Shown here: positions 7,097 to 62,715 of the stretch, one piece after another | How positions within the stretch are numbered: position 1 is the stretch's first letter | Layout: each line of letters starts with the position of its first letter | Source: a virus | Length of the DNA stretch: 64,000 nt | Virus record (IMG/VR): IMGVR_UViG_3300042341_001202 | Coordinates: 1-64,000 of that record | Strand: one strand, 5' to 3' | Translations under genes and position numbers: made by a program | The notes under the pieces: generated by a model | Told to the model about the DNA's origin: nothing | Database searches by the model: none | What the model saw: only the letters and a program-made list of their open reading frames with translations

Positions 7097-7127
7097 TTGA
7101 CGTAATTGGGCATCTAGCCTATAAATA
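7097..7127 (+). promoter_or_regulatory. Dual early/late promoter for nadV
   Basis: TTGACG, 17 bases, TATAAA gives a strong sigma-70 match, and the same -10 extends to TATAAATA, the T4-type late box. The gene could therefore be transcribed by host-type sigma early and by late sigma later. Confidence 0.75.
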
Positions 7128-7183
7128 TGACACAGGAAAAGGATAGACCTTTTCCTTCACATACTGAACAAGGGAGACTTGTT

Positions 7184-8593
7184 ATGTTCAATTACGATAG
7201 CGTCATTCTTGACGTCGACAGCTACAAATTCAGCCATCCGTGGCAACTTCCCCCAAACACCACACACATTCACAGCTACGTAGAAAGTCGCGGCGGACGC
7301 TTCCCTCGCACACTGTTTTACGGGCTCCAAATGTGGCTCAAGCGTCGGCTGGTGACTCCAGTGACCATGAGCGACGTGGACGAGGCTGCTGGATTGGCAG
7401 CCGCACACATGGTGCCTTTCCATCGGGAAGGCTGGGAATACATTGTGCGTGAGCACCAGGGCCGGTTGCCAGTAGAGATTCGAGCAGTGCCCGAAGGCAT
7501 GGTGATCCCCACTCACAACGTGCTAGCCACTGTGGTGAACACCGATCCCAATGTGCCCTGGCTCACTAGCTTCCTAGAGACAGCTCTACTCCGTGCTGTT
7601 TGGTACCCCACCACAGTGGCCACACTCAGCTGGCATGCCAAGCAGACCATTCGAGCTGCACTGGGGAAGAGCAGCGACAACCCCGAAGGCGAGCTTCTGT
7701 TTCGACTGCACGACTTTGGCGCTCGTGGCGTCAGCAGCGATGAAAGCGCTCAGCTGGGTGGCAGTGCTCACCTAGTGAACTTCCGAGGCACCGACACTGT
7801 TGCAGCCCTCCTTGCAGCCCGACGCTACTACACCGAGGCCATGGCAGGGTTTAGCATTCCGGCAGCAGAGCACAGCACCATCACCAGTTGGGGTCGCGAT
7901 GGCGAAGCTGAGGCCTATGGCAACATGCTCAAGCAGTTTGCCCGGCCAGGCAGCATCCTTGCAGTGGTGAGCGACAGCTACGACATCATGAACGCGGTCA
8001 ACCACATCTGGGGCGAAACACTGCGAGACCGTGTGCTAGACAGTGGGGCCACCCTTGTGATTCGTCCCGACAGCGGTGATCCAGTTGTGGTGCCAGTTGA
8101 TGTGGTTGAGGCACTTGGTGAGCGGTTTGGCTACACCGTCAACAGCAAGGGCTACAAGGTGCTGAACAAGAGTGTGCGTGTGATCCAGGGCGATGGCATG
8201 AACATTGACAGCATCAAAACCCTGTATGACAACCTCACAGCACGCGGCTGGAGTGCAGAAAACGTGGCTGTGGGCATGGGCGGCCAACTCTTGCAAGGTA
8301 TTACTCGCGACACCAATCGATTTGCGATGAAAGCTTCAGCTGCCTGTATTGATGGGGAATGGCGCGAGGTATATAAGGATCCTATTACAGACAAAGGAAA
8401 AACATCCAAGAAAGGTAAAGTTACCCTTTGGCAGTCAGGTAACCAATTTCAAACAAGCGTTAACACTCCTCTACGCGGTCTTGAGAATGGTGTGGTGTGG
8501 ACCGACGTTCTGCAGACAGTCTACCGGAATGGACGCCTTCTCATTGATCAATCATTCCAGGACATTAGAGATCGATCTGAGAAAGTCTTTTAA
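7184..8593 (+). CDS. nadV: Nicotinamide phosphoribosyltransferase (3' end replaced)
   Basis: 469 residues from ATG 7184 (GGGAG 9 bases upstream). It makes NMN from nicotinamide and PRPP. Family landmarks are present: D-S-Y-K-F-S-H near the N-terminus, H-D-F-G-A-R-G-V-S-S, E-H-S-T-I-T-S-W-G, I-R-P-D-S-G-D-P, G-D-G-M, and F-A-M-K-A-S-A-A near the C-terminus. The last 85 or so codons (from about 8320) are AT-richer and differ in codon use from the body. A diverged second copy of the same C-terminus lies at 9670-9960, beyond a homing endonuclease gene. The gene end overlaps the endonuclease gene tail-to-tail by 42 bases. With NadM it forms a NARP2-like NAD+ rebuilding pair. Confidence 0.93.
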   Translation: MFNYDSVILDVDSYKFSHPWQLPPNTTHIHSYVESRGGRFPRTLFYGLQMWLKRRLVTPVTMSDVDEAAGLAAAHMVPFHREGWEYIVREHQGRLPVEIRAVPEGMVIPTHNVLATVVNTDPNVPWLTSFLETALLRAVWYPTTVATLSWHAKQTIRAALGKSSDNPEGELLFRLHDFGARGVSSDESAQLGGSAHLVNFRGTDTVAALLAARRYYTEAMAGFSIPAAEHSTITSWGRDGEAEAYGNMLKQFARPGSILAVVSDSYDIMNAVNHIWGETLRDRVLDSGATLVIRPDSGDPVVVPVDVVEALGERFGYTVNSKGYKVLNKSVRVIQGDGMNIDSIKTLYDNLTARGWSAENVAVGMGGQLLQGITRDTNRFAMKASAACIDGEWREVYKDPITDKGKTSKKGKVTLWQSGNQFQTSVNTPLRGLENGVVWTDVLQTVYRNGRLLIDQSFQDIRDRSEKVF

Positions 8594-9669: not shown

Positions 9670-9960
9670 TGACCTACCATCAGTATAGACACACAGAAGT
9701 TTGCAATGAAAGCCTCTGCTGCCAAGATCAATGGTGAGTGGCAGGATGTCTACAAAGACCCTGTGACCGACAAGGGCAAGACCAGCAAGCGTGGCCGACT
9801 GATCCTCACTCGGGAACGTGGCAAGTGGGAAACACTGCCTGTCAACAGTGGATTTGATTGGGCCAACATGCTCCTGCCAGTCTATCGAAATGGAGAGCTG
9901 CTGCGGGACTGGACCTTCCAGGAGGTTCGAGCCAACAGTGACAAGGCTGCACTAGATTAA
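9670..9960 (+). pseudogene. nadV: Displaced original 3' end of nadV
   Basis: The open frame reads S-I-D-T-Q-K-F-A-M-K-A-S-A-A-K and continues to a TAA. It aligns along its whole length with the last 100 residues of nadV, sharing V-Y-K-D-P-[IV]-T-D-K-G-K-T-S-K and V-Y-R-N-G. Its GC-rich codon use matches the body of nadV better than the current nadV 3' end does. It starts inside the protein, so it is an orphaned exon-like fragment. Translation from ATG 9706 would give 84 residues of unknown use. Confidence 0.85.
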
Positions 9961-10084: not shown

Positions 10085-10612
10085 ATGAGCGATTTAAAAA
10101 CACTTACTTGGGCAAATCACAAGCTTGCCGAAAGTACTCCTTTGATGGCTGCTATGCTTTCTGGAGATATAACACCTGAATGCTACTCTGATCTAGTGTA
10201 CAGCAAACACTTGTTGTATTCTGTTATTGAAAGCAGACTTGCTTTTGAGTGTGCTGACTTGCCTCGAGCAGGCTGTGCGTTCCAGGACTGGAAAGAGATG
10301 GGGTCCCACAGTCCCACTTTACCTGCCAGTTTTTTTGAATTTCACGAGAGACTGGAAACTGTGTCTGAAAGCCAATTGTGGGCGCATGTGTATGTGCACT
10401 ACCTTGCCCCGCTCTATGGTGGTCAAATCTTGAAGAAGATTTTGAGCCCTCGTTTTCCGGTAAACATGCTGAGTTTTGAAACACCCAAAGCAGCTATTGC
10501 TGAGATTCGCTACAAAACACATGCTGGTTTGGCTGAAGAGGCCAATCTCAGCTTTGAGATGACAACAAGGTACTATGACGAACTTCATCAATCTCATCAA
10601 CCAAACGGCTGA
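10085..10612 (+). CDS. Heme oxygenase
   Basis: 175 residues. The proximal-histidine helix N-H-K-L-A-E-S-T-P-L-M near residue 12 and the distal-helix pattern Y-V-H-Y-L-A-P-L-Y-G-G-Q (family Y-x-x-x-L-x-x-x-x-G-G-Q) identify a HO-1-like enzyme that opens heme to biliverdin IX-alpha. It overlaps the bilin reductase gene by 38 bases, so the two are translated together. Cyanophages and uncultured marine phages carry such pairs to make bilin chromophores. Slightly short for the family (about 200-240). Confidence 0.85.
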   Translation: MSDLKTLTWANHKLAESTPLMAAMLSGDITPECYSDLVYSKHLLYSVIESRLAFECADLPRAGCAFQDWKEMGSHSPTLPASFFEFHERLETVSESQLWAHVYVHYLAPLYGGQILKKILSPRFPVNMLSFETPKAAIAEIRYKTHAGLAEEANLSFEMTTRYYDELHQSHQPNG

Positions 10613-11201
10613 TAAATTTGAGCAGCTGATCCAAAACAACACCACTCTCTTGACGGAGATACCAACAGAGGATTTTGGTTGGACCAATAACCGATGGTAT
10701 AGCCAACAGTTTCGGCTTGCTCATGTGGAAAGATTTCAGCAACCAAAATTCAGTGTGTTGCACACTGTGATCTTTCCTCACCTGACTGATCCCAGCCCTA
10801 TTTTTGGGTTTGATATCATTGCCAGTGACACCAAGGCCACAGGTTTGTTTTTTGATTTCAGTCCCACTGTTGAAAGTTATGGAATCATATCTAGTCATCT
10901 ATGGAGTGAGCCACGTGAAAGACCTGAATGGGGAACAATTTTCAGCGAGCATTGGATCGCTTGCAGACCCACATATACGGAAGCTGAAACCATCAGCACA
11001 TTGGCATGCACACTGTTGGAACAATATCTATCTCAGTTGGGAACAAAAACCACAACAGATGTACCTATGGTCATAAAGAAGCAAAATCAATACAGTTTGA
11101 ACCAAAGACAAAACACTCATACTACTAGAGTTCTCATGAAGATACTGGGAGAAGAGCGTGGCCAGTATTTTGTGGAAAATATTTTATTCCCAACCATATG
11201 A
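10575..11201 (+). CDS. Ferredoxin-dependent bilin reductase (PcyX/PebS/PcyA family)
   Basis: 208 residues. R-W-Y-S-x-x-F, F-S-V-L-H-T-V-I-F-P-H, F-G-F-D-I-I-A-S and F-F-D-F-S-P match the bilin-reductase family, which reduces biliverdin with ferredoxin electrons to phycobilins. Overlap with the heme oxygenase gene implies sequential reactions. PcyX, described from marine phage metagenomes next to heme oxygenase, is the closest context precedent. Which isomer is produced cannot be told from sequence alone. Confidence 0.82.
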   Translation: MTNFINLINQTADKFEQLIQNNTTLLTEIPTEDFGWTNNRWYSQQFRLAHVERFQQPKFSVLHTVIFPHLTDPSPIFGFDIIASDTKATGLFFDFSPTVESYGIISSHLWSEPRERPEWGTIFSEHWIACRPTYTEAETISTLACTLLEQYLSQLGTKTTTDVPMVIKKQNQYSLNQRQNTHTTRVLMKILGEERGQYFVENILFPTI

Positions 11202-11205
11202 AGAA

Positions 11206-11234
11206 TTGACACACCCTATACTTGTAGTATCTTT
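11206..11234 (+). promoter_or_regulatory. Promoter of the sigma factor gene
   Basis: TTGACA, 17 bases, TATCTT, just after the bilin reductase stop and 24 bases before the sigma-factor ATG (GGAG ribosome site). Confidence 0.6.
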
Positions 11235-11257
11235 CAGACTGAAGCATGGAGTAGAGT

Positions 11258-12667
11258 ATGACACCCGCTACAACGACAGCCAAAACTATTGAAAAATCCA
11301 GTGATATGGATGCAACCAAACTGTATCTCAAGCAGGTTGCCAAAAACAAGTTGCTTACACATCAGCAGGAAATTCAATTTAGTCAACAAATTGAAAACAG
11401 CAAGAAAAACCTGCTCTTGAATCTGTTCTCTATTCCTATGGCAGTATGGCAGTTTGATACCAAGATTCAAGGTGTAGTAAAAGGGGAAATTGACAGCCAC
11501 AGCATTTTTGACATTGAAGAAACAGAACTAGCCCCTCTGCTCACAAATCTAGCAAACATTCAACAGGATATTATGCTGTTAAGCACCAGCCCCAATAGTG
11601 AACTCTGTCAACGAGTGGCTGAAACCTGTTCTTCGCTGAGTTTCAAACTCAGCTTTTACGACAGCATGGTTCAGCCCTTCAACGACATGGTGAAAGACAT
11701 TATTAGCGCACAAGGAGCTTACCTGCGCTTTGCACAAAGCAAAGGAGTCTCTCGTGAGTTGTTCCTAGCCGCATACCAAAGCATGTCACAAGACAAAAAT
11801 TGGCTGCGGTTCAAAACAGTTCACCAAGCCGAAGTGGAAAAGCATGAGTCGCAACTAGCAAGTTTTGTTGCCAACACGGGTATGCCACTTGACACACTCC
11901 TTGAAAAATGCCGCCAGATTCGGCAAGAGCAAAAAAACAAGGACGAGGCAGTGGAGATTATGCTCAAGAGCAATCTTCGACTCGTGGTGAGTGTGGCAAA
12001 GAAATACACCAACATCAGTCAAACTCCCATTCTTGATCTCATTCAAGAAGGCAACATTGGTCTCTTGAAAGCTATTGAGAAGTTTGATTGGAAGATGGGA
12101 TTTCGTTTCAGCACCTACGCCACTTGGTGGATCAAGCAGTGTGTGCTGAAAGCCTTGAATGAGCATCATCGTATCATTCGTATCCCAGCTCACATGAGCG
12201 ACCTTGCCAAGAAGGTAACGCGAGCACGAGCTGAGTTTGTAAATCACAATGGTTTTGAGCCCAGTGTGCAAGAAATTGCAGAGATGCTGGAAATTGATGT
12301 GGAAAACGTAGACAAAGTCTACAGTGTTGCGCAGGGCACAATCTCTCTGGAAACGCCAATTGGCGGTGAAGAAGATCAAACCATTGCACATCTTATTGAA
12401 GACACTGAAGGGGTGAATGCGTTTAACCTCTTGGCTGAGGCTGACAGCGCATATGCAGTGTCAGAGGTCTTGAAACATCTCAGTCCCAAGGAAGAGCGTG
12501 TGATCAGGATGCGCTTTGGTATTGGTGTAAACGAACAAAGCACACTGGAAGACATTGGCAACAAATTTGGTGTCACTCGTGAGCGTGTGCGCCAGATTGA
12601 AAGCAAAGCACTGGAAAAGCTCAAGAGTACGGAACTAGCTCAGAAGCTGCAAGAAGCTTTTACCTAA
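11258..12667 (+). CDS. Sigma-70 family RNA polymerase sigma factor (RpoD/RpoS-like)
   Basis: 469 residues. Region 1.2 (D-A-T-K-L-Y-L-K-Q-V, about 17-45), region 2 (L-R-L-V-V-S-V-A-K-K-Y ... F-D-W-K-M-G-F-R-F-S-T-Y-A-T-W-W-I-K-Q, about 233-290), region 3 with R-I-P-A-H-M, and region 4 helix-turn-helix (T-L-E-D-I-G-N-K-F-G-V-T-R-E-R-V-R-Q-I-E) are all present. About 150 residues between 1.2 and 2.1 correspond to a non-conserved region. It is a full group 1/2-like sigma, unlike T4 gp55, which is small. It probably redirects host RNA polymerase, perhaps to the TTGACA/TATAAT promoters here. Confidence 0.93.
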   Translation: MTPATTTAKTIEKSSDMDATKLYLKQVAKNKLLTHQQEIQFSQQIENSKKNLLLNLFSIPMAVWQFDTKIQGVVKGEIDSHSIFDIEETELAPLLTNLANIQQDIMLLSTSPNSELCQRVAETCSSLSFKLSFYDSMVQPFNDMVKDIISAQGAYLRFAQSKGVSRELFLAAYQSMSQDKNWLRFKTVHQAEVEKHESQLASFVANTGMPLDTLLEKCRQIRQEQKNKDEAVEIMLKSNLRLVVSVAKKYTNISQTPILDLIQEGNIGLLKAIEKFDWKMGFRFSTYATWWIKQCVLKALNEHHRIIRIPAHMSDLAKKVTRARAEFVNHNGFEPSVQEIAEMLEIDVENVDKVYSVAQGTISLETPIGGEEDQTIAHLIEDTEGVNAFNLLAEADSAYAVSEVLKHLSPKEERVIRMRFGIGVNEQSTLEDIGNKFGVTRERVRQIESKALEKLKSTELAQKLQEAFT

Positions 12668-12914: not shown

Positions 12915-13589
12915 ATGATTCAATACATTGAAATACGCCAAGCTGAGGGCGGAGAAGACAGTCAACTGTTTGTTGATGATTTGGCACGTGCCTATATTCG
13001 CATGGCCAGCAAGCTGGGTTGACTCACTACTGTAGTTAAAACGGTCCCAGGCTTCTGTGTTATCAAACTAGAGGGACAAGATCTTTCACAGTGGGCACAA
13101 GAAGCAGGTGGGCATAGGATACAGAGGGTTCCACCAACTGAAAGACGTGGAAGAGTCCATACCAGTACAGTCACAGTAGCAGTGCTAGAGTATCCTTCAG
13201 AACAAGCCATTGAAATACTTGACAAAGATCTAGTAATAGAGTGGTTTTCTGGCACTGGTCCCGGTGGTCAAAATCGAAATAAGGTAATGGCCAGTTGTAG
13301 ATTGCGACACACACCAACTGGGGTAGTCGTTACCGCCCAAACAAGAAGCAGAACCACTAGCTTTGCACAAGCTAGGCAGGAATTGGAGACACGACTTCAA
13401 AACAGGTTCAAGAGCCAAGCAGCCTCTCAAACCAGCCAAGAAAGAAAACATCAGGTTGGTAGCGGCCAGCGCGGAGATAAAATACGCACTATCCAAATTC
13501 AACATGACTCAGCTGTGGACCATCGCACAGGCAAACGTTGCACTGCGGAAAGTTATCTCAAAGGCGAAATTTACAAGCTTTGGTTGTGA
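12915..13589 (+). CDS. RF1-like peptide chain release factor with in-frame UGA
   Basis: 224 codons in one frame from ATG 12915, with a TGA at codon 36 (13020-13022). Before it: I-E-I-R-Q-A-E-G-G-E-D-S and A-R-A-Y-I-R-M-A-S-K-L-G. After it: H-R-I-Q-R-V-P-P-T-E-R (the P-x-T anticodon-like motif of RF1), the catalytic G-P-G-G-Q-N-R-N-K, and an RF1-like D-H-R-T-G-K-R. RF1 has Trp (R-R-W-R) at the position of the UGA. The N-terminal domain of cellular RFs is absent. The context UGA-C is a leaky stop, so Trp readthrough is plausible. A simple inactivating mutation is the alternative. Unlike bacterial prfB, no frameshift is needed. Confidence 0.8.
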
Positions 13590-14548: not shown

Positions 14549-18640
<4,092 letters not shown>

Positions 18641-24998: not shown

Positions 24999-25006
24999 CC
25001 AATTGT

Positions 25007-25077
25007 AGGTCGCTGGTGAATTAGTATCACGTTGAGCTCCAACCTCAAAGTGCCGGGGGCGGTACCTGGGTGGCCTG
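25007..25077 (+). tRNA. tRNA-Trp (CCA), non-canonical T-loop
   Basis: Acceptor AGGTCGC/GTGGCCT with wobble pairs, anticodon loop CTCCAAC, discriminator G as in bacterial Trp tRNAs, T-loop GGCGGTA (G55), CCA encoded. Could also be the tRNA that reads the UGA in the release factor gene. Confidence 0.82.
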
Positions 25078-25102
25078 CCAACTATTCTCTCAACCAACAA
25101 TT

Positions 25103-25208
25103 GCCATCGAGGTTGGAACAGCCTCCCAACACACCATGAGAATGGTAACTAGCCGGCAGCAATCACCTAGCTGGTGAAGAAATCCGGAAGTGGCATCCGG
25201 CGATGGCG
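25103..25208 (+). tRNA. tRNA-like gene with anticodon-loop insertion (Leu candidate)
   Basis: Acceptor GCCATCG/CGATGGC (perfect), D-stem GTTG/CAAC, anticodon stem CACC/GGTG, T-stem CCGGA/TCCGG with loop AGTGGCA. Between the anticodon-stem strands lie 37 bases instead of 7, including a GAGA-capped hairpin (ACCAT/ATGGT). Removing about 30 bases gives a loop with anticodon GAG or TAG, both Leu. The variable region is short (about 7). Confidence 0.5.
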
Positions 25209-32392: not shown

Positions 32393-32998
32393 TTACCATC
32401 TTGCATTATCCTCAAATCCAGCATCTTCTAGTTCTTTTTGACAATCAAACATGGCACGTTTGCCTTGTCCTGCGTATTTGTTCAAGATTGTTTCAACAGT
32501 CGTGTGATTCATTGCTGACCGCAACGAGATACTTTTGGCTGCCAAACAACGGAGCAGTGGAAGAGTAGGCGTGTAAGGTATAGCCAAGTAATTGAGCTCT
32601 GAAGGCATACCTTGGAGTGAGGTTAATGGGTTGAGGTGACAACTAAAAAGATCACCAACACTGCTGGGAGCACCTTCCAGTGAAGTCAGTTGGTTGTTGA
32701 AGCATACGAAACTTCCAACCACATTCTTGGGTGCAGCTTTAAGTGAAATAAGTTGGTTACTTGAGCCTAAGAAACTTCCACCAACACTCTCTGGCGCCCC
32801 GTCCAGTGTGGTTAGTTGGTTGTAATCGCACTGGAAGTGTCCAAGAACACTCTTGAAACGCACAGGGAACTGGGGTAATTGTCTTTTAAGTATAACATTA
32901 CCCTGGCAAGTGATCAACCCCTCAGGATCTATTGTGACTTGGCCTGTTGTTTTGAAATTAGCTTTCAACAAAGCCATTACTTCTTTTTTGTCTACCAT
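32393..32998 (-). CDS. LRR-family paralog (201 aa), last of operon
   Basis: MVDKKEVMALLKANFKTTG head, a G-x-I-x-C-x-G-x-V strand, six LRR-like units (S-L-E-G-A-P-S-S-V-G-D-L-F-S-C-x-x-N-P-L-T), tail Q-G-K-R-A-M-F-D-C-Q-K-E-L-E-D-A-G-F ending in NARW. Closest in its head to the partial paralog at 1-125. Converges with the SleB gene. Confidence 0.88.
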   Translation of the reverse strand: MVDKKEVMALLKANFKTTGQVTIDPEGLITCQGNVILKRQLPQFPVRFKSVLGHFQCDYNQLTTLDGAPESVGGSFLGSSNQLISLKAAPKNVVGSFVCFNNQLTSLEGAPSSVGDLFSCHLNPLTSLQGMPSELNYLAIPYTPTLPLLRCLAAKSISLRSAMNHTTVETILNKYAGQGKRAMFDCQKELEDAGFEDNARW

Positions 32999-33744
32999 CT
33001 TGCATTCCCTTCAAATCCAGCATCTTCCAGTTCTTTTTGGCAGTCAAACATGGCACGTTTGCCTTGACCCATATACTTTTGCAGAATAGCCCGCACCTCG
33101 TGTGGCCATCCCATACCCGACCACAGTTTTTTAGCATTTAAACAACGCAAGAGCGGCAGAGTGGGGCTGTAGTCAATCCATAAAACCCTTACTTCAGTAG
33201 GCATTCCTTCAAGTGACTCTAGCTGATTACCCCATGCTCTCAACTCGCCAGTGATGGTTTTTGGTGCACCGTGTAGTGAGACTAGTTTGTTTTCCATGCA
33301 AAACAAATCATGCACTTTCTCAGGAACATGTTCCAGTGATGAGAGTTGATTTGTCATACAAGAGAAATTGGCACCAACTGATTTGGGACAGTGTTCAAGG
33401 CTTTCTATGTTGTTATTATCGCATTTGAAATCTCCGCCCACATGTTGAGGCGAACCCAACAAACTGGTGAGTTGGTTGTGGCCACACTTGAAATCTCTAC
33501 CTACCCAAGAGGGTGCGCCTTCTAGACTCACCAGATCGGTATGCTGTACAGCAAAATCGTAGCGTATTTTTCCAAACCTTACCCGCAAGGTTTTTATACC
33601 TGGCTTACCATCAAGGTAAGATTTCTCCTTGCTCTTGACACTGCCTGTGCAGGATATCAATCCTGTGTTGGGATCAACAGAGAGTTTACCTGTGTGAGAG
33701 TAATATTTGTCAAAAGTTTTTTTGATCCCGGCTAGATCTACCAT
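32992..33744 (-). CDS. LRR-family paralog (250 aa)
   Basis: Head MVDLAGIKKTFDKYYSHTG, then a longer than usual strand section and about seven repeats (x-H-N-Q-L-T-S-L-L-G-S-P-Q-H-V-G-G-D-F-K-C). Tail is the family type with MGQGKRAMFDCQKELEDAGF. Stop overlaps the next gene's ATG in ATGGTAG. Confidence 0.88.
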   Translation of the reverse strand: MVDLAGIKKTFDKYYSHTGKLSVDPNTGLISCTGSVKSKEKSYLDGKPGIKTLRVRFGKIRYDFAVQHTDLVSLEGAPSWVGRDFKCGHNQLTSLLGSPQHVGGDFKCDNNNIESLEHCPKSVGANFSCMTNQLSSLEHVPEKVHDLFCMENKLVSLHGAPKTITGELRAWGNQLESLEGMPTEVRVLWIDYSPTLPLLRCLNAKKLWSGMGWPHEVRAILQKYMGQGKRAMFDCQKELEDAGFEGNARW

Positions 33745-34355
33745 CGTGCATTTCCTTCAAATCCAGAGTCTTCCAAATCTTTTTGGCAGTCAAACATGGC
33801 AGCTTTGCCTTGACCTGCATATTTGTTCATGATTTCTTGAACCTTCTGGGGTGGCTCCGATTCATCAACCCTATGCATGAATACAATTTTTTTGGCAACC
33901 AATGCACGTAGCAAAGGCAAAGTGGGCGAATATTGTAACACTAGTCGCCCTAAACCTTCTTGCGGTATGCCTTCAAGACTTTCAAGTGGATTGCCCACAC
34001 AACTCAAAGATCCAAGAACTTTTTTGGGTGCACCTTGCAAGCTCTTGAGCTGGTTGAACCCACATAAGTAGTGTTCGCCAACAGCATCAGGACCGCCTTC
34101 AAGAGTTTGTAAATTGTTCTCAGTACAACGAAATTCATTGTAGACATATTTGGGAGATCCTTGAAGGCTTGTGAGCCCCATGCCCCCCACATCAAATCCT
34201 TCCACTTCATAAAAGCCAACTGGCAACTTCTTAACATGCAACATAAGCGTTACGTAACCTTTTGTGCTTATTGTTCCATCAGAATTGATTACAATGCTTT
34301 CATTACATTGAAAATAATCATCAAAAGTTTTTTTGATGTTATCAACGTCTACCAT
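33738..34355 (-). CDS. LRR-family paralog (205 aa)
   Basis: Head MVDVDNIKKTFDDYFQ, five repeats with L-Q-G-S-P and L-E-G-G-P turns, tail G-Q-G-K-A-A-M-F-D-C-Q-K-D-L-E-D-S-G-F (Ala in place of Arg). Overlapping stop/start with both neighbours. Confidence 0.88.
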   Translation of the reverse strand: MVDVDNIKKTFDDYFQCNESIVINSDGTISTKGYVTLMLHVKKLPVGFYEVEGFDVGGMGLTSLQGSPKYVYNEFRCTENNLQTLEGGPDAVGEHYLCGFNQLKSLQGAPKKVLGSLSCVGNPLESLEGIPQEGLGRLVLQYSPTLPLLRALVAKKIVFMHRVDESEPPQKVQEIMNKYAGQGKAAMFDCQKDLEDSGFEGNARW

Positions 34356-34987
34356 TTTGCATGATCCTCAAATCCAGCGTCTTCCAAATCTTTTTGGCAA
34401 TCAAACATGGCACGTTTGCCTTGGCCAGCATATTTGTTCAAAATTGTCTGCACTTTTCCCTTCTCCACAGTGTGAGTGTCGTCAGCAGGCTCTAAAAATA
34501 TATGCCTTGCTGCCAAGGTACGTAAGAGAGGCAAATGTGGTAGATACGGTAACCAAGCTGCATTTTCCACTTTCAACGGAAATCCATCCAAGCTTTTCAA
34601 CGGATTACCAATGCAATTGAAATTATTGGGTATCTGGACAGGTGCCCCCTTCAAATCAACAAGTTGATTATGGTCACAGTAGTAGTTCCAACCTACAATT
34701 TCTGGCCCCCCACTAAGGCTTTTGAGCATGTTACGTGAACAGTCAAAACTCACGCCCACTTCAGGGGGACAGCCTTCCAAGGTTACTAGTGCGTTCTCAT
34801 CTAACGATAGATTTTCAGTTACAGCTTTGAAGGCAACTGGCAGTTTTTCAAAACGTGTATAGTGGAGATTCAACAATTGAATATCGCCATTTACTGTTAC
34901 CAGTCCATCTGATGAAACTTTTGCACTGTTGTAGTCAAAGCTGAAATGGTCTTTCAATAACTGCAAGATTTCTCGTTTGTTTACCAT
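34349..34987 (-). CDS. LRR-family paralog (212 aa)
   Basis: Head MVNKREILQLLKDHFSFD, repeats with N-A-L-V-T-L-E-G-C-P-P-E-V-G and N-Q-L-V-D-L-K-G-A-P, tail ending DHAKW rather than NARW. Stop overlaps the next ATG. Confidence 0.88.
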   Translation of the reverse strand: MVNKREILQLLKDHFSFDYNSAKVSSDGLVTVNGDIQLLNLHYTRFEKLPVAFKAVTENLSLDENALVTLEGCPPEVGVSFDCSRNMLKSLSGGPEIVGWNYYCDHNQLVDLKGAPVQIPNNFNCIGNPLKSLDGFPLKVENAAWLPYLPHLPLLRTLAARHIFLEPADDTHTVEKGKVQTILNKYAGQGKRAMFDCQKDLEDAGFEDHAKW

Positions 34988-35640
34988 CTGGCGTTGTCCT
35001 CAAATCCGGCATCTTCCAATTCTTTTTGACAATCAAACATAACACGTTTTCCTTGCCCCAAATATTTTTCCAAAATGTATAACACCTTCCAGGCATCGCT
35101 GCCCTCGCTTTGATACGGCCAAAAAATAATCTCTGGTGCCACCAATGTGCGCAACAAAGGCAGCTGAGTATCATAAGTGATATACAAACTATCTCCAATT
35201 TTTTGAGGAAAGCCCTGCAAGCTCTCTAGAGGATTGGCTGAACAATTGAACACACTGGGGATTTCTCTAGGTGCCCCTTCCAAATCCTTCAATTGATTTT
35301 TACTGCAATTATAACTGCCGCCAAATGTGGGTGTTTGTGTCGTGCCTATTGTTTTGGGTCCAAACTTCAAACTTTTGAGTTCATTATTGTCACACTCAAA
35401 ATTCTTACCAACAGTTTCTGGACAACCCTCTAGTGTCTTGAGTTGGTTGATGCTGAGCATCATACTGCCTTCAATGTGAGAAAATTTCACCGGTAGTTCT
35501 TGAAAAGAACTGTGAAATTTGTTGTATAACACAACGTCTCCCATGACACTGACTTTGCCAGCTGGATCAACAATGGGGTCCCCATCTACCATGAAATGTT
35601 GAGTTAGCGTGTTCAACACATGCTGTTTGACGTCTACCAT
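34981..35640 (-). CDS. LRR-family paralog (219 aa)
   Basis: Head MVDVKQHVLNTLTQHF, a strand G-K-V-S-V-M-G-D-V-V-L, repeats with N-Q-L-K-T-L-E-G-C-P-E-T-V-G-K-N-F-E-C, and a small insertion (T-T-Q-T-P-T-F-G-G) in one repeat. Tail has V-M-F-D-C-Q-K-E-L. Confidence 0.88.
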   Translation of the reverse strand: MVDVKQHVLNTLTQHFMVDGDPIVDPAGKVSVMGDVVLYNKFHSSFQELPVKFSHIEGSMMLSINQLKTLEGCPETVGKNFECDNNELKSLKFGPKTIGTTQTPTFGGSYNCSKNQLKDLEGAPREIPSVFNCSANPLESLQGFPQKIGDSLYITYDTQLPLLRTLVAPEIIFWPYQSEGSDAWKVLYILEKYLGQGKRVMFDCQKELEDAGFEDNARW

Positions 35641-36239
35641 CTTGCATTTCCTTCAAAGCCCGCATCTTCCAGTTCTTTTTGGCAATCAAACAGGGCACGT
35701 TTGCCTTGTCCTGCGTATTTGTAAAATATTCCTTCAATTGTTAGAAGTTTGCTTTGCATAACATTGTGGGCATACAGCATTAGGCCCTGTTGGCAGTTCA
35801 AAGCTCGAAGCAAGGGCAATTTATTGTGATAATTTATGCTCAAGTGTTGGCCTACTCGTTGGGGAAACCCAGCAAGACTCAACACTGGAACCTCTTGTCT
35901 AAATCCCACACGACCTGAAACCTCAAGGGGCCCACCTGTCATGTCTTTCAAAGGATTTTTGTTGGCAGTGAATCTGCCTCCCACAATCTGCGGACAACCT
36001 TCAAGACTGGAGAGTCCACATCTGTCTAAAATCAAACTGGCATGGCAAACGCCAAATTTTACAGGCAGTTTTCCATTGGGAAACGGTCCTTGTATGGCCA
36101 AGAGCACACCATATCCTGGTGTGATCTCCTGCACATTTACTATACCACTATCTTCAATTTGAAAGCGCACCCGGTTGTCTGCCTCACCATTACGAAAATA
36201 AGTGTTCAACATGTGCTGAACTTCTTGTTTGTCTACCAT
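35634..36239 (-). CDS. LRR-family paralog (201 aa)
   Basis: Head MVDKQEVQHMLNTYF. The second half of the N-terminal domain differs (I-T-P-G-Y-G-V-L-L-A-I-Q-G-P-F-P) and is shared with the next gene at 36233, so these two form a subfamily. Tail R-A-L-F-D-C-Q-K-E-L-E-D-A-G-F. Confidence 0.88.
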   Translation of the reverse strand: MVDKQEVQHMLNTYFRNGEADNRVRFQIEDSGIVNVQEITPGYGVLLAIQGPFPNGKLPVKFGVCHASLILDRCGLSSLEGCPQIVGGRFTANKNPLKDMTGGPLEVSGRVGFRQEVPVLSLAGFPQRVGQHLSINYHNKLPLLRALNCQQGLMLYAHNVMQSKLLTIEGIFYKYAGQGKRALFDCQKELEDAGFEGNARW

Positions 36240-36832
36240 CTTGCATTTCCTTCAAATCCAGCATCCTCTAGATCTTTTTGACATTCAAACAGGGCACGCT
36301 TGCCCTGTCCTTTGTATTTTTCAATTATTTCTTCAATGGGATTAGTGTTAAAGGATGATGAGCTCAATATTACACCATCTTGGCAAGCTAACGTGCGCAG
36401 CAGCGGCAACTTGTCATGGTAAGGCAGTTTAGCATAGTCACCCACCCTATCAGGAAAACCATCCAAACTCTCTAATAGGTTTTTCTGCATCCCAAGCCAA
36501 AACCTACCTGTGACTTCTTTGGGCCCACCCTTGAAATTTTTCAATTGATTGCCAAGTGCAACAAAATTGCCTTGGATTACAGGGGGACAACCAACCAAGT
36601 CCACGATTTGATTCCGGTCCAATTTTAAGCTGGCTTTGAACAAGCCAAATCTCACAGGCAACTGACCTCCAGGGAAGGGTTTGTCCTTAATAGTGCGGAG
36701 ATGGCCGCGACCAGGAGTCAGCTCAAGCACATTAACCAAGCCCTCAGGACCTATGTCAAATTTCACAGCGTCATTTGGCTCAAAGAAAAAATACTCTGCC
36801 AACAGTTCCAAAATTTCCCTTTTGTCTACCAT
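36233..36832 (-). CDS. LRR-family paralog (199 aa)
   Basis: Head MVDKREILELLAEYFFFE, subfamily strand L-T-P-G-R-G-H-L-R-T-I-K as in 35634-36239, four repeats, tail R-A-L-F-E-C-Q-K-D-L-E-D-A-G-F (Glu for Asp). Confidence 0.88.
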   Translation of the reverse strand: MVDKREILELLAEYFFFEPNDAVKFDIGPEGLVNVLELTPGRGHLRTIKDKPFPGGQLPVRFGLFKASLKLDRNQIVDLVGCPPVIQGNFVALGNQLKNFKGGPKEVTGRFWLGMQKNLLESLDGFPDRVGDYAKLPYHDKLPLLRTLACQDGVILSSSSFNTNPIEEIIEKYKGQGKRALFECQKDLEDAGFEGNARW

Positions 36833-37647
36833 TTGGCGTTCCTTTCAAATCCTGCGTCTTCCAATTCTTTTTGACAGTCAAACAGGGCTCGTTTGCCCTG
36901 GCCTGCGTATTTTTTCAAGATGGTTTCCACTTGAATATACTTGCCCCACAGCACAGGCCAAAAATTGACCTTCTGGGCTACCAAAAGCCGTAACAAGGGC
37001 AAATCGGATTTGTAACTGACTTCAATCAAATCAGGAGTTTGGGAGCCTAACCCCTCAAGATTTTCCAAGGGATTGTGATCAAAAATAAACTGCTTGGAAA
37101 TATTCAAAGAGGCACCTTTGAGTGTTGTGAGCTTGTTGTTGGTTGCCCAAAAATATTCCACGGTCTGTGGTGCGTCTTGAAGATCAGTCAAGAGATTTTT
37201 ACTGACATCAAACATACCACCTATTTGCAGGGGAGCACCTCGCAAACTCACTAAATTGTTGTTGTATGCAATGTATTCTTGTGTAAAGTCTCGTGGACTT
37301 CCCAACAAATCTGAGAGTTTATTATTCTGGCAAGAATATTGTCCTTTTACTGTTTTTGGGCCACCAACCAAGCTGATCAACTGGTTTTCACTGCAATCAA
37401 ATGTGTCCAAGACAGTGTGAGGACAGCCTTCAAGTGTTTCCAACTTGTTCCTGTGACAGAGAAAATTGCCTTCCACCACTCCAAATCTCACAGGCAATCG
37501 AGAGGTCTCTTTGCTCAACAAAATTGATCCATGAGCATCTACAACACCTGTATCATGTATAGTGAAAAGGGTACTTTCCCAACCAAAGTATTCATTCAGT
37601 AACTGACGAACAGTTGTTTTGTCTTGTGGGAATTCCTGGTTTACCAT
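36826..37647 (-). CDS. LRR-family paralog (273 aa), longest
   Basis: Head MVNQEFPQDKTTVRQLLNEYF, then eight or nine repeats, the most of any member, with the clearest spacing of about 20 residues (N-K-L-E-T-L-E-G-C-P-H-T-V-L-D-T-F-D-C). Tail ends RNAKW. Confidence 0.88.
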   Translation of the reverse strand: MVNQEFPQDKTTVRQLLNEYFGWESTLFTIHDTGVVDAHGSILLSKETSRLPVRFGVVEGNFLCHRNKLETLEGCPHTVLDTFDCSENQLISLVGGPKTVKGQYSCQNNKLSDLLGSPRDFTQEYIAYNNNLVSLRGAPLQIGGMFDVSKNLLTDLQDAPQTVEYFWATNNKLTTLKGASLNISKQFIFDHNPLENLEGLGSQTPDLIEVSYKSDLPLLRLLVAQKVNFWPVLWGKYIQVETILKKYAGQGKRALFDCQKELEDAGFERNAKW

Positions 37648-38297
37648 CGTGCATTTTCCTCAAAACCCGCATCTTCCAATTCTTTTTGGCAGTCAAACAA
37701 AGCACGTTTGCCTTTGCCTGCATAACTGTTCAAAATTTTATGTAACTGCTGGAATTTTCCTTCGTTTCCTCGCTTATATTGCATAGGCACAATAAGGTCC
37801 ACATGCAAGGCTCCTAATGTTCTCAACAGTGGTATTGTGGGACTATACGTCAATGTTACCCAAGCAATGCTCTTGGGCAAGTGGTCAAGTGACTCCAGTG
37901 GGTTGTCTTGAATCTCCAGATTGTCAGATACTGTGTCCGGCAAACCTTGTAGAGAAGTCAACTTGTTGCTATTGAGAAGGATACTGCCACTGACCCAATG
38001 CGGAAAACTGGTTAACTTTGATAGCAAGTTGAAGCTGGCGTCGAAATCTCCTTCAATCTCAAATGGGCATCCTTCCAAGGTTCTTAGATTCTTGTTGTTG
38101 CAGGTGAAGGTACCATGCACCTTACTGAAACGCAAAGGTAACTGAGATTGAGGCCGCGTTAGGTGTAAGTCACCAGCCACAACAATCTTACCATCTTGAT
38201 CAAACATCCAACCAGCTGGATATAAGGCATTGCTCTCTATCTTGAAGTTCTGGCTCAAGATGGTTTTGGTTTGTTCATATTCCACATCACTTACCAT
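37641..38297 (-). CDS. LRR-family paralog (218 aa)
   Basis: Head MVSDVEYEQTKTILSQNF, repeats N-L-R-T-L-E-G-C-P-F-E-I-E-G-D-F and N-K-L-T-S-L-Q-G-L-P, tail R-A-L-F-D-C-Q-K-E-L-E-D-A-G-F ending ENARW. Confidence 0.88.
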   Translation of the reverse strand: MVSDVEYEQTKTILSQNFKIESNALYPAGWMFDQDGKIVVAGDLHLTRPQSQLPLRFSKVHGTFTCNNKNLRTLEGCPFEIEGDFDASFNLLSKLTSFPHWVSGSILLNSNKLTSLQGLPDTVSDNLEIQDNPLESLDHLPKSIAWVTLTYSPTIPLLRTLGALHVDLIVPMQYKRGNEGKFQQLHKILNSYAGKGKRALFDCQKELEDAGFEENARW

Positions 38298-40200: not shown

Positions 40201-40321
40201 GGATCCGTGGTCTAATTGGATAAGGCAAGAGCCTTCCGGTCCCGCAGGTAGCATTCAAGGTTCGAATCCTTGGGGACCGCTCCTAAGCTCTTCGATGGGG
40301 GTTCGAATCCCTCCGGGTCCG
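40201..40321 (+). tRNA. tRNA-Arg with a 47-base tRNA-like minihelix in the anticodon loop
   Basis: Acceptor GGATCCG/CGGGTCC, D-stem GTC/GGC, anticodon stem AGAGC/GCTCT, variable 5, T-loop TTCGAAT, discriminator G, CCA encoded. The loop is 54 bases (40233-40286). Removing 40237-40283 leaves CTTCTAA, anticodon TCT (Arg). The insert is a 7-bp stem CGGTCCC/GGGACCG stacked on a T-arm CAAGG/CCTTG with loop TTCGAAT, like an acceptor-T minihelix. Confidence 0.78.
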
Positions 40322-44002: not shown

Positions 44003-44803
44003 ATGCATTGGATTATTCAGGACAACCTGCTCAATGAGCGCAACTATAGCAGCCTTCTGGAAGCTCTAGTTCGTCTTCAAATCCCTCATGACATTGTCAA
44101 GGTGATTCCGTTCACAAGTGGGTTGCCATGGGAAGAGCGAATTACTCCCCTGGTAGACCCTCAAGGACACGTGATGGTGAGTGGGAGCATCAGCCTGGCT
44201 ACACTGGCTACTGATCGTGGTTGGACCCCAGGCAGCTTTCACAATGAGAACCATGACTTTCAAGTGTGGCGTGAACACATGAAAGGTCATCTCCTCAATG
44301 AGGAGGCAGTGGTGTGCAAGTTTGGTGATGTGCCCCATTTGTGGGATCGCTTTTTTATCCGACCCACAGAAGACACCAAGAGCTTCAACGGGCAGATAAT
44401 AGACTGGCAGGCGTTCCTATCTTGGCAACGTAAGGTGATTGGATTGCGTGAGACCTATACTACTCTTGATGAGAACACTCCAGTTGTGGTGAGTGAACTC
44501 AAACAGATATATCGGGAGGCCCGATTTTTTGTAGTAGATGGAGAAGTCATCACAGGCAGCACCTACAAGATTGGAAGCCGCGTTTGTCCAACAGCAGAAG
44601 TGCCACCCACAATGTGGGAATATGCTCAACGCATGGCTGGAAAGTGGGGACCAGCTCGAGCCTATGTGATTGACCTGGCTCTTACTGACGATGCTGATGA
44701 TGGATACAACAAGATTATTGAATACAACTGCTGCAATTGTGCAGGGTTTTATGAGATTGATGTGCAGAAATGGATTATGGCCATTGAAAACATGGAGTTT
44801 TAG
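44003..44803 (+). CDS. ATP-grasp (R2K-clade-like) protein (266 aa)
   Basis: F-I-R-P-T-E-D-T-K-S-F-N-G, F-F-V-V-D-G-E-V-I-T-G-S-T-Y, A-Y-V-I-D-L-A and I-I-E-Y-N-C-C-N-C-A-G-F-Y follow the ATP-grasp R2K group found in many phages, thought to ligate amino acids or peptides. The stop is a TAG placed directly before, and in frame with, the GTG of the TilS-like gene. Confidence 0.72.
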   Translation: MHWIIQDNLLNERNYSSLLEALVRLQIPHDIVKVIPFTSGLPWEERITPLVDPQGHVMVSGSISLATLATDRGWTPGSFHNENHDFQVWREHMKGHLLNEEAVVCKFGDVPHLWDRFFIRPTEDTKSFNGQIIDWQAFLSWQRKVIGLRETYTTLDENTPVVVSELKQIYREARFFVVDGEVITGSTYKIGSRVCPTAEVPPTMWEYAQRMAGKWGPARAYVIDLALTDDADDGYNKIIEYNCCNCAGFYEIDVQKWIMAIENMEF

Positions 44804-45412
44804 GTGTTCAAGTTGCTGGCCAAGTTGCCTCGAGAACTGGGGGTAGCGTGTAGCGGTGGTGTAGACAGCATGGCGGTGCTGGATTTTTTGCGCCTCCGGC
44901 ACAACGTCACTGTGTGTTTTTTTCATCATGACACCGAAACAAGTTCAAAAGCGTTGAGCTTTCTCAGCACATACTGTTATGAGAACTCCATTCCCATGCG
45001 AGTGGATTTTTTGGTTGATGCGTGCCCCAAAGGGGTTTCAATGGAAGAACATTGGCGCAACAGTCGATATGAGTTTTTGCACAGCATCGAAGGAGTTGTG
45101 GTAACAGGGCATCATCTAGATGATTGTGTGGAGACCTATCTCTTCAACTGTTTGCATGGGAAAACACACACCATTCCCATGTGGCGGAACAATGTGGTGC
45201 GACCCTTTCTCACCACACCCAAGAGTGTGTTTGAAAGTTGGTGTGTGAGACATGAGGTGCCTTGGGTTGAGGATGAGAGCAATAAAGATTTGAAGTATAT
45301 GCGGAATCACATTCGTCATAAGATTGTACCGGAGGCACTCAAGGTCAATCCAGGCTTGAGGAAGGTGGTCAAGCGGCTGGTTCTTCAAAGCATGCAAACA
45401 GAAAATAGTTGA
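44804..45412 (+). CDS. TilS-like PP-loop ATPase (tRNA-Ile lysidine synthetase family)
   Basis: 202 residues from GTG 44804 (GGAG 6 bases upstream). PP-loop S-G-G-V-D-S-M, F-F-H-H-D-T-E-T-S and G-H-H-L-D-D-C-V-E-T-Y match the N-type ATP pyrophosphatase core of TilS, and D-L-K-Y-M-R-N-H-I-R-H-K-I-V-P resembles its R-N-x-I-R segment. TilS makes lysidine at C34 of tRNA-Ile(CAU). A CAT-anticodon tRNA lies 40 bases downstream. Shorter than cellular TilS (about 430), lacking C-terminal domains. In frame with the upstream gene across one TAG. Confidence 0.82.
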   Translation: MFKLLAKLPRELGVACSGGVDSMAVLDFLRLRHNVTVCFFHHDTETSSKALSFLSTYCYENSIPMRVDFLVDACPKGVSMEEHWRNSRYEFLHSIEGVVVTGHHLDDCVETYLFNCLHGKTHTIPMWRNNVVRPFLTTPKSVFESWCVRHEVPWVEDESNKDLKYMRNHIRHKIVPEALKVNPGLRKVVKRLVLQSMQTENS

Positions 45413-47268: not shown

Positions 47269-47339
47269 GGCCCCATAAGACAAAGGTAGTCAGCTGGACT
47301 CTAAATCCAGTGGTGTGAGTTCAAATCTCACTGGTGCCA
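47269..47339 (+). tRNA. Amber suppressor tRNA (anticodon CTA)
   Basis: Acceptor GGCCCCA/TGGTGCC (one C-T mismatch), anticodon stem CTGGA/TCCAG with loop CTCTAAA, so anticodon CUA reads UAG. T-loop TTCAAAT, discriminator A, CCA encoded. Own promoter and terminator. Charging amino acid cannot be read from sequence. Confidence 0.83.
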
Positions 47340-47410
47340 CCAAAAGTTTACAAAAAGGTTTTCAAACAAAATAATGACCTAGGTTTCACACAAGTTTGAA
47401 CTTTTCTTTG

Positions 47411-51432: not shown

Positions 51433-53100
<1,668 letters not shown>

Positions 53101-60471: not shown

Positions 60472-62714
<2,243 letters not shown>

Positions 62715-62715
<1 letters not shown>

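Follow-up and report, generated by a model that had tools for sequence, protein, structure and literature searches.

The 64,000-nucleotide stretch of phage DNA analyzed here (the window) encodes an RF1-type release factor that, judging from comparison with its relatives, is probably gated by its own in-frame UGA codon. The codon would be read through, probably as tryptophan, and the factor made only when termination by RF2 is slow. The initial annotation had described one continuous frame of 224 codons with TGA at codon 36 and the same frame on both sides. Translation confirmed this, and codon 36 is the sole internal stop of 12915-13589. The gene and its landmarks are as follows.

12915..13589, plus strand: RF1-like release factor gene without domain 1; 224 codons plus stop; matches RF1 models and the ribosome-bound RF1 fold.
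12903, plus strand: alternative start ATG for the RF1-like gene, in the same frame.
13020..13022, plus strand: in-frame TGA at codon 36, the conserved predicted gate; TGA is kept in 98 of 98 distinct subclade homologues.
13017..13040, plus strand: codons 35-42 around the TGA, with synonymous-site constraint by codon-identity ratios; probable cis-acting readthrough context.
13131..13139, plus strand: P-P-T codon-recognition motif, RF1 type (UAA/UAG); seen in the translation and invariant in the alignment.
13263..13271, plus strand: GGQ peptide-release motif, from translation and alignment.
13587..13589, plus strand: terminal TGA of the RF1-like gene; the same codon as that passed at codon 36 terminates here.

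The window is part of a 148-kb virus record, and an identical 20.7-kb stretch sits within a contig of 309,756 bases. Thus, the phage is probably a jumbo phage. Just upstream of the release factor gene (10085-12667) are adjacent genes for heme oxygenase and a ferredoxin-dependent bilin reductase, followed by a gene for a full-length sigma-70-type factor (11258-12667). The bilin genes suggest that the host may be photosynthetic. We also identified a nicotinamide phosphoribosyltransferase-like gene (7127-8593), with a fragment about 1 kb downstream (9679-9948) that is 50% identical to its C-terminal end. Collagen-like repeats are present in three long proteins (14549-18631, 51433-53091 and 60478-62715). 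Nine head-to-tail minus-strand ORFs of about 200-270 aa, with overlaps of a few bases and TAG or TAA stops (32393-38297), are apparently a tandem gene family or an operon.

With TGA read as Trp, the protein matches the Pfam domains PCRF (1.5e-20) and RF-1 (2.6e-18), and RF1 models rank first in NCBIfam. Its score with the RF1 prfA equivalog is 186 bits, below the cut-off of 400, and the match to the RF1 model starts at about model position 107. Thus, domain 1 is missing. Marks of RF1 include H-R-I-Q-R-V-P-P-T-E and GGQ; the neighboring motifs H-R-x-Q-R-V-P-x-T-E and G-R-V-H-T-S are present as well. These domain matches, the model ranking and the P-P-T motif bear out the earlier identification as an RF1 with a P-x-T motif. 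A P-x-T motif reads UAA and UAG, not UGA. The AlphaFold model (mean pLDDT 90.5) aligns with ribosome-bound RF1 at a TM-score of 0.91 and 34% identity. In the model, codon 36 falls between the first helix and the next strand, ahead of the codon-recognition part, so a product terminated there is predicted to be unable to act as a release factor. The residue aligned to codon 36 was previously given as Trp. We find Trp in the solved RF1 structures (best match 'rkGW') and at this position in 7 of 8 full-length prfA controls.

Conservation of the TGA in relatives had been proposed as a check. TGA stands at codon 36 in three identical assemblies and also in the first distant relatives identified (54-56% identity). 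A wider scan yielded 78 loci (68 distinct proteins), every one with TGA at codon 36 and no further internal stop. After further scans, TGA was present in all 98 distinct subclade homologues, at protein identities to the window of about 50-60%, and TGG occurred at codon 36 in none of the 98. The remaining Trp codons of these 98 genes, 209 in number, are all TGG. Sequencing error, named earlier as a possible refutation, is excluded, as three identical assemblies and 98 distinct homologues keep the TGA.

A broken frame and a GTG-started ORF of 135 aa (13182-13589) could indicate a pseudogene, or a gene that yields only a truncated product from an internal start. This is very unlikely, given that sequence and reading frame are kept on both sides of the TGA at 50-60% identity, that the internal start lies beyond the PPT motif and that the gate is kept in 242 of 249 members of the wider family described below. 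The first start after codon 36 in the window gene is the GTG at codon 90, beyond the PPT motif. In half of the subclade, an ATG, GTG or TTG occurs after the UGA and before the PPT motif, and reinitiation is thus possible in part of the subclade.

The nucleotides around the UGA are under selection beyond that on the protein. We counted identical codons at shared residues in diverged pairs (35-62% identity). Codons 37-42 are identical 1.86 times as often as expected and codon 35 is identical 1.58 times as often (gene mean 1.00, sd 0.24). The peak of synonymous constraint comprises exactly codons 35 and 37-42, and synonymous sites elsewhere in the gene are variable. The commonest subclade context is GGC UGA ACU ACC CGC CUG AUA; the window has GGT UGA CTC ACT ACT. 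The leaky UGA-C context described in the initial annotation is present in the window, but it is not a conserved feature: across the readthrough genes of the family, the base after TGA is A in 102 cases, C in 38, G in 14 and T in none. T follows only 1 of all 160 readthrough stops, compared with an expected 13.6%, and 1 of 56 sites in clustered representatives (chance of none, 2.6e-4).

A conserved in-frame UGA with nucleotide constraint just downstream is also what selenocysteine insertion might produce. We identified no conserved RNA structure using RNAalifold (20 diverse sequences), and thus no consensus hairpin downstream, in a search for general consensus folding. Compared with the rest of the gene, folding downstream of the TGA is just slightly stronger. 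Moreover, the aligned residue is Trp, not Cys, and the identity and position of the stop vary across the family. We consider selenocysteine extremely unlikely.

Elsewhere in the window TGA serves as a normal stop, and the standard code is in use. Among window ORFs of at least 150 aa, 12 of 49 end in TGA, several with an ATGA overlap to the next ORF, and coding coverage changes from 0.84 to 0.85 when TGA is opened as sense. In the loci of the relatives, TGA ends 249 of 744 ORFs; in 114 of these, the stop and a possible following start are joined as ATGA or TGATG. Opening TGA there raises coverage from 0.64 to 0.71, as longer random frames would. A UCA suppressor tRNA was not found in the window, the rest of its contig or the loci scanned. 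Genome-wide use of TGA for Trp or TAG for Gln was rejected on coverage and stop usage.

The idea that the phage reassigns UGA to Trp, so that codon 36 is a plain Trp codon, draws on the TGA occupying a Trp position and on the presence of RF1 in some code-4 phages (PMC10746230). It is already contradicted and has almost no probability: TGA terminates many genes, including the RF1-like gene itself; opening it brings no gain in window coverage; there is no UCA tRNA in the sequences scanned; the 209 other Trp codons are all TGG; and relatives carry TAG, or shift frame, at other codons.

The odd tRNA-Trp near 25007, suggested earlier as the reader of the UGA, does not hold up. The cloverleaf-like fold at 25005-25082 has a CCA anticodon and an ordinary 5-bp anticodon stem, lacks a normal T-loop and was called as a tRNA neither by ARAGORN (even with relaxed settings) nor by Rfam. 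As the fold is not recognized as a tRNA, and no UCA anticodon was found, we rejected it as a dedicated suppressor. An Rfam 'skipping-rope' RNA (25102-25208) adjoins it.

A tRNA-Trp with an open 27-43 pair, and thus a 4-bp anticodon stem, has been reported to read UGA in E. coli (PMC13092985). Phage tRNA-Trp(CCA) genes with this feature occur at loci L005, L041, L088, L095 and L097. Their frequency (5 of 22, vs 118 of 1170 other tRNAs; p = 0.07) is insufficient to identify the short stem as the cause.

The window also encodes a tRNA with a CUA anticodon (47269-47342), called tRNA-Pyl by ARAGORN. It is possibly an amber suppressor, in a phage in which TAG is a frequent stop. Among the scanned loci only the window and L061 carry one, and we rejected it as part of the mechanism. 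An Rfam tRNA match over 121 bases (40201-40321), as if an insertion or intron lay inside a tRNA, is absent from the ARAGORN calls. At 44003-45412, the TAG stop of an ATP-grasp (R2K) gene is immediately followed, in the same frame, by a gene for a PP-loop ATPase. The TAG (44801-44803) was considered as a sign of a second recoded gene and rejected, as the parts before and after it match distinct families (ATP-grasp R2K and PP-loop). The locus more likely comprises two genes, and a TAG fusion is possible.

Going beyond the initial annotation, the predicted gate is family-wide by comparison of sequences, and relatives use TAG or a prfB-like +1 frameshift. Scans of IMG/VR and bacterial genomes, with contigs mostly of metagenomic origin, gave 261 distinct sequences: 249 short RF1-like genes, 8 full-length prfA genes and 4 unclassified sequences (L142 and L229, which are incomplete, and L196 and L208, with frames disrupted in other ways). 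None of the 8 prfA controls has an internal stop. The short members include 142 with an in-frame stop, 100 with a +1 frameshift and 7 with no stop, so that 242 of 249 have a recoding stop. The 142 readthrough genes contain 154 TGA and 6 TAG codons, some genes having two. All mapped stops are at codons 35-52 (window numbering), those of readthrough genes mainly at codons 36, 38, 43, 47 and 51, and those of frameshift genes mainly at codon 36, and also at 41, 48, 50 and 52. Domain-1-less RF1 genes with an in-frame TGA at other codons are present in the huge phages LR745206, LR756501, LR756502 and LR756504. Bacterial assemblies (L183-L228) also carry a stop-gated RF1-like gene; several Nannocystis have a CTT TGA frameshift site, and Kofleriaceae have CTT TAG. 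Cultured carriers include Nannocystis exedens DSM 71 and Thalassospira xianhensis.

The slip codon is CTT in 100 of 100 frameshift genes, a class defined by CTT at the join. This condition was met by 100 of the 104 frame-changed sequences, so CTT was found, not imposed. The stop that follows is TGA in 78 genes, TAG in 20 and TAA in 2. In clustered representatives, an SD-like motif no more than 12 nt upstream is present in 40 of 54 frameshift genes (e.g., CGGAGGGGTCTT followed by TGAC) vs 8 of 50 readthrough genes.

On a tree built with the recoding columns excluded, the short RF1-like family is separate from prfA with a support of 97. The fewest changes required on this tree are 39 for the full label, 8 for switches of mechanism (readthrough or frameshift) and 15 for the choice of stop within the frameshift class; these counts are estimates, as many inner branches are weakly supported. 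Clear local examples are L189, a frameshift at TAG within the UGA-readthrough subclade; L193 and L217, frameshifts among genes with readthrough at codon 47; L113 and L128, with TAG at codon 51 among TGA relatives; and the close relatives L247 and L253, which differ in having TGA or TAG. Because the stop, its position and the mechanism change while loss is rare, the site appears to be selected for being a stop. This pattern speaks against explaining the conservation of the site by Trp coding, selenocysteine or a changed code. The conserved feature, as read from these comparisons, is a termination-sensitive gate, not an amino acid. Quite probably, the whole of this bacterial-type RF1 branch, found in large phages and some bacteria, is obligatorily stop-gated, with selection preserving the gate as the position (35-52), the stop (UGA or UAG) and the mechanism (readthrough or prfB-like +1 frameshift) repeatedly turn over. 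Gating by UAG would represent direct RF1 autoregulation and gating by UGA a cross-circuit, with RF1 synthesis responding to the capacity of RF2; neither was known for RF1.

In the mechanism that we propose for the window gene, most ribosomes would stop at codon 36, giving an inactive 35-residue peptide, and a fraction would read the UGA through to form the 224-residue factor. The inserted residue would most likely be Trp, delivered by near-cognate tRNA-Trp with help from the conserved nucleotides on either side. Output of the RF1-like protein would increase if RF2 became slow or overloaded. The product would take over UAA and UAG, RF2 would be freed for UGA, and readthrough would fall, forming a negative feedback loop. 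Since the P-P-T product does not itself read UGA, feedback through UGA would be indirect; a direct loop would be expected in UAG-gated members. Among bacterial stop codons UGA is the leakiest; it is read only by RF2, and UAA is common to RF1 and RF2. Thus, we infer low-level readthrough from the leakiness of UGA; the aligned residue and near-cognate decoding point to Trp; and a dependence on RF2 would follow from its being the only factor that reads UGA.

The earlier proposal that UGA readthrough couples release factor synthesis to RF2 loses its tRNA-Trp component and otherwise stands as the best explanation for what the genes display: a stop that is kept at one codon, coding sequence before and after it, constrained nucleotides around it, and replacement by UAG or a prfB-like +1 frameshift in relatives, with no TGG relative and no sequencing error.

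Some neighboring genes could point to a different signal. In Novimethylophilus (L217), the release factor gene directly follows a Pnkp-type RNA-repair gene (kinase, phosphatase and ligase domains), and T4-type RNA ligases occur about 0.5-7 kb from the release factor gene in about 20 phage loci. The gate might thus sense stress or damage, not the RF2 level, with the RF1-like factor made when damaged ribosomes or tRNAs block termination and acting in rescue with RNA-repair enzymes, like PrfH with RtcB. PrfH likewise lacks domain 1 (PMC1586002). However, RtcB is unlinked to the release factor gene in the genomes searched, RNA ligases are common in large phages, and the RF1 codon-recognition motif is intact, unlike that of PrfH. 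Sensing of damage is possible but rather unlikely.

PrfH (RFH) is a separate family of class I release factors without domain 1 and is linked to RtcB (PMC1586002, PMC6514570). The genes described here share the lack of domain 1 and are sometimes near RNA-repair genes. Nevertheless, the window protein scores 52 bits with the NCBIfam prfH model (cut-off 167) and has an RF1-type motif. RtcB was matched in 5 of 19 genomes searched and was not near the release factor gene where positions could be compared.

A close known parallel in design is prfB, the RF2 gene, as both are release factor genes with an early in-frame stop that needs recoding. The roughly 100 frameshift relatives have the same CTT-stop slip and an upstream SD-like sequence. 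Unlike RF2, the window protein is of the RF1 type (P-P-T), lacks domain 1 and does not have the S-P-F (UGA) motif of the prfB type. The recoding site is in domain 2, whereas that of prfB is in domain 1, and the window gene continues in frame (readthrough), without a CUU UGA +1 frameshift and SD-like sequence. The window product does not read its gating codon, and UAG-gated relatives fit RF1 specificity. UAG is used by a fifth of the frameshift members, whereas a 2025 survey of more than 12,000 genomes reported TAG in 0 of 8,164 prfB motifs, and no credible prfA case (PMC12421855).

A proposal that predates the sequencing of release factor genes held that RF2 might be controlled by an early in-frame UGA, with readthrough occurring at low levels of the factor (PMC5009743). 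According to a 2016 review, neither a same-frame UGA in RF2 genes nor a UAG in RF1 genes was known, and the only example given was a giant amoeba virus with readthrough and frameshifting in a release factor gene (PMC5009743), which is the case of Mimivirus eRF1. In Mimivirus and Megavirus, the eRF1 gene has two internal stops; ribosomes get past one of them by frameshifting and past the other by readthrough (Jeudy et al., 2012, PMC3521657). That protein is of the eukaryotic/archaeal type, occurs in amoeba viruses and is not homologous, whereas the window protein matches bacterial RF1 in both sequence and fold. Phages recoded to code 4 or code 15 are likewise large and encode their own RF1 or RF2, but here the standard code is used and the sequences scanned yielded no UCA suppressor tRNA. 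No prior description of a stop-gated short RF1 family was found in the literature searched, which excluded most subscription journals.

Both predicted forms, in-frame UGA and in-frame UAG, thus occur in one RF1 family beside frameshift forms. Because of this, readthrough and frameshifting can be compared as interchangeable answers to one regulatory need. Stop-gated RF1 genes would be missed by pseudogene-style annotation or by calls of internal starts. For the phage, the gate is a plausible sensor of host termination capacity.
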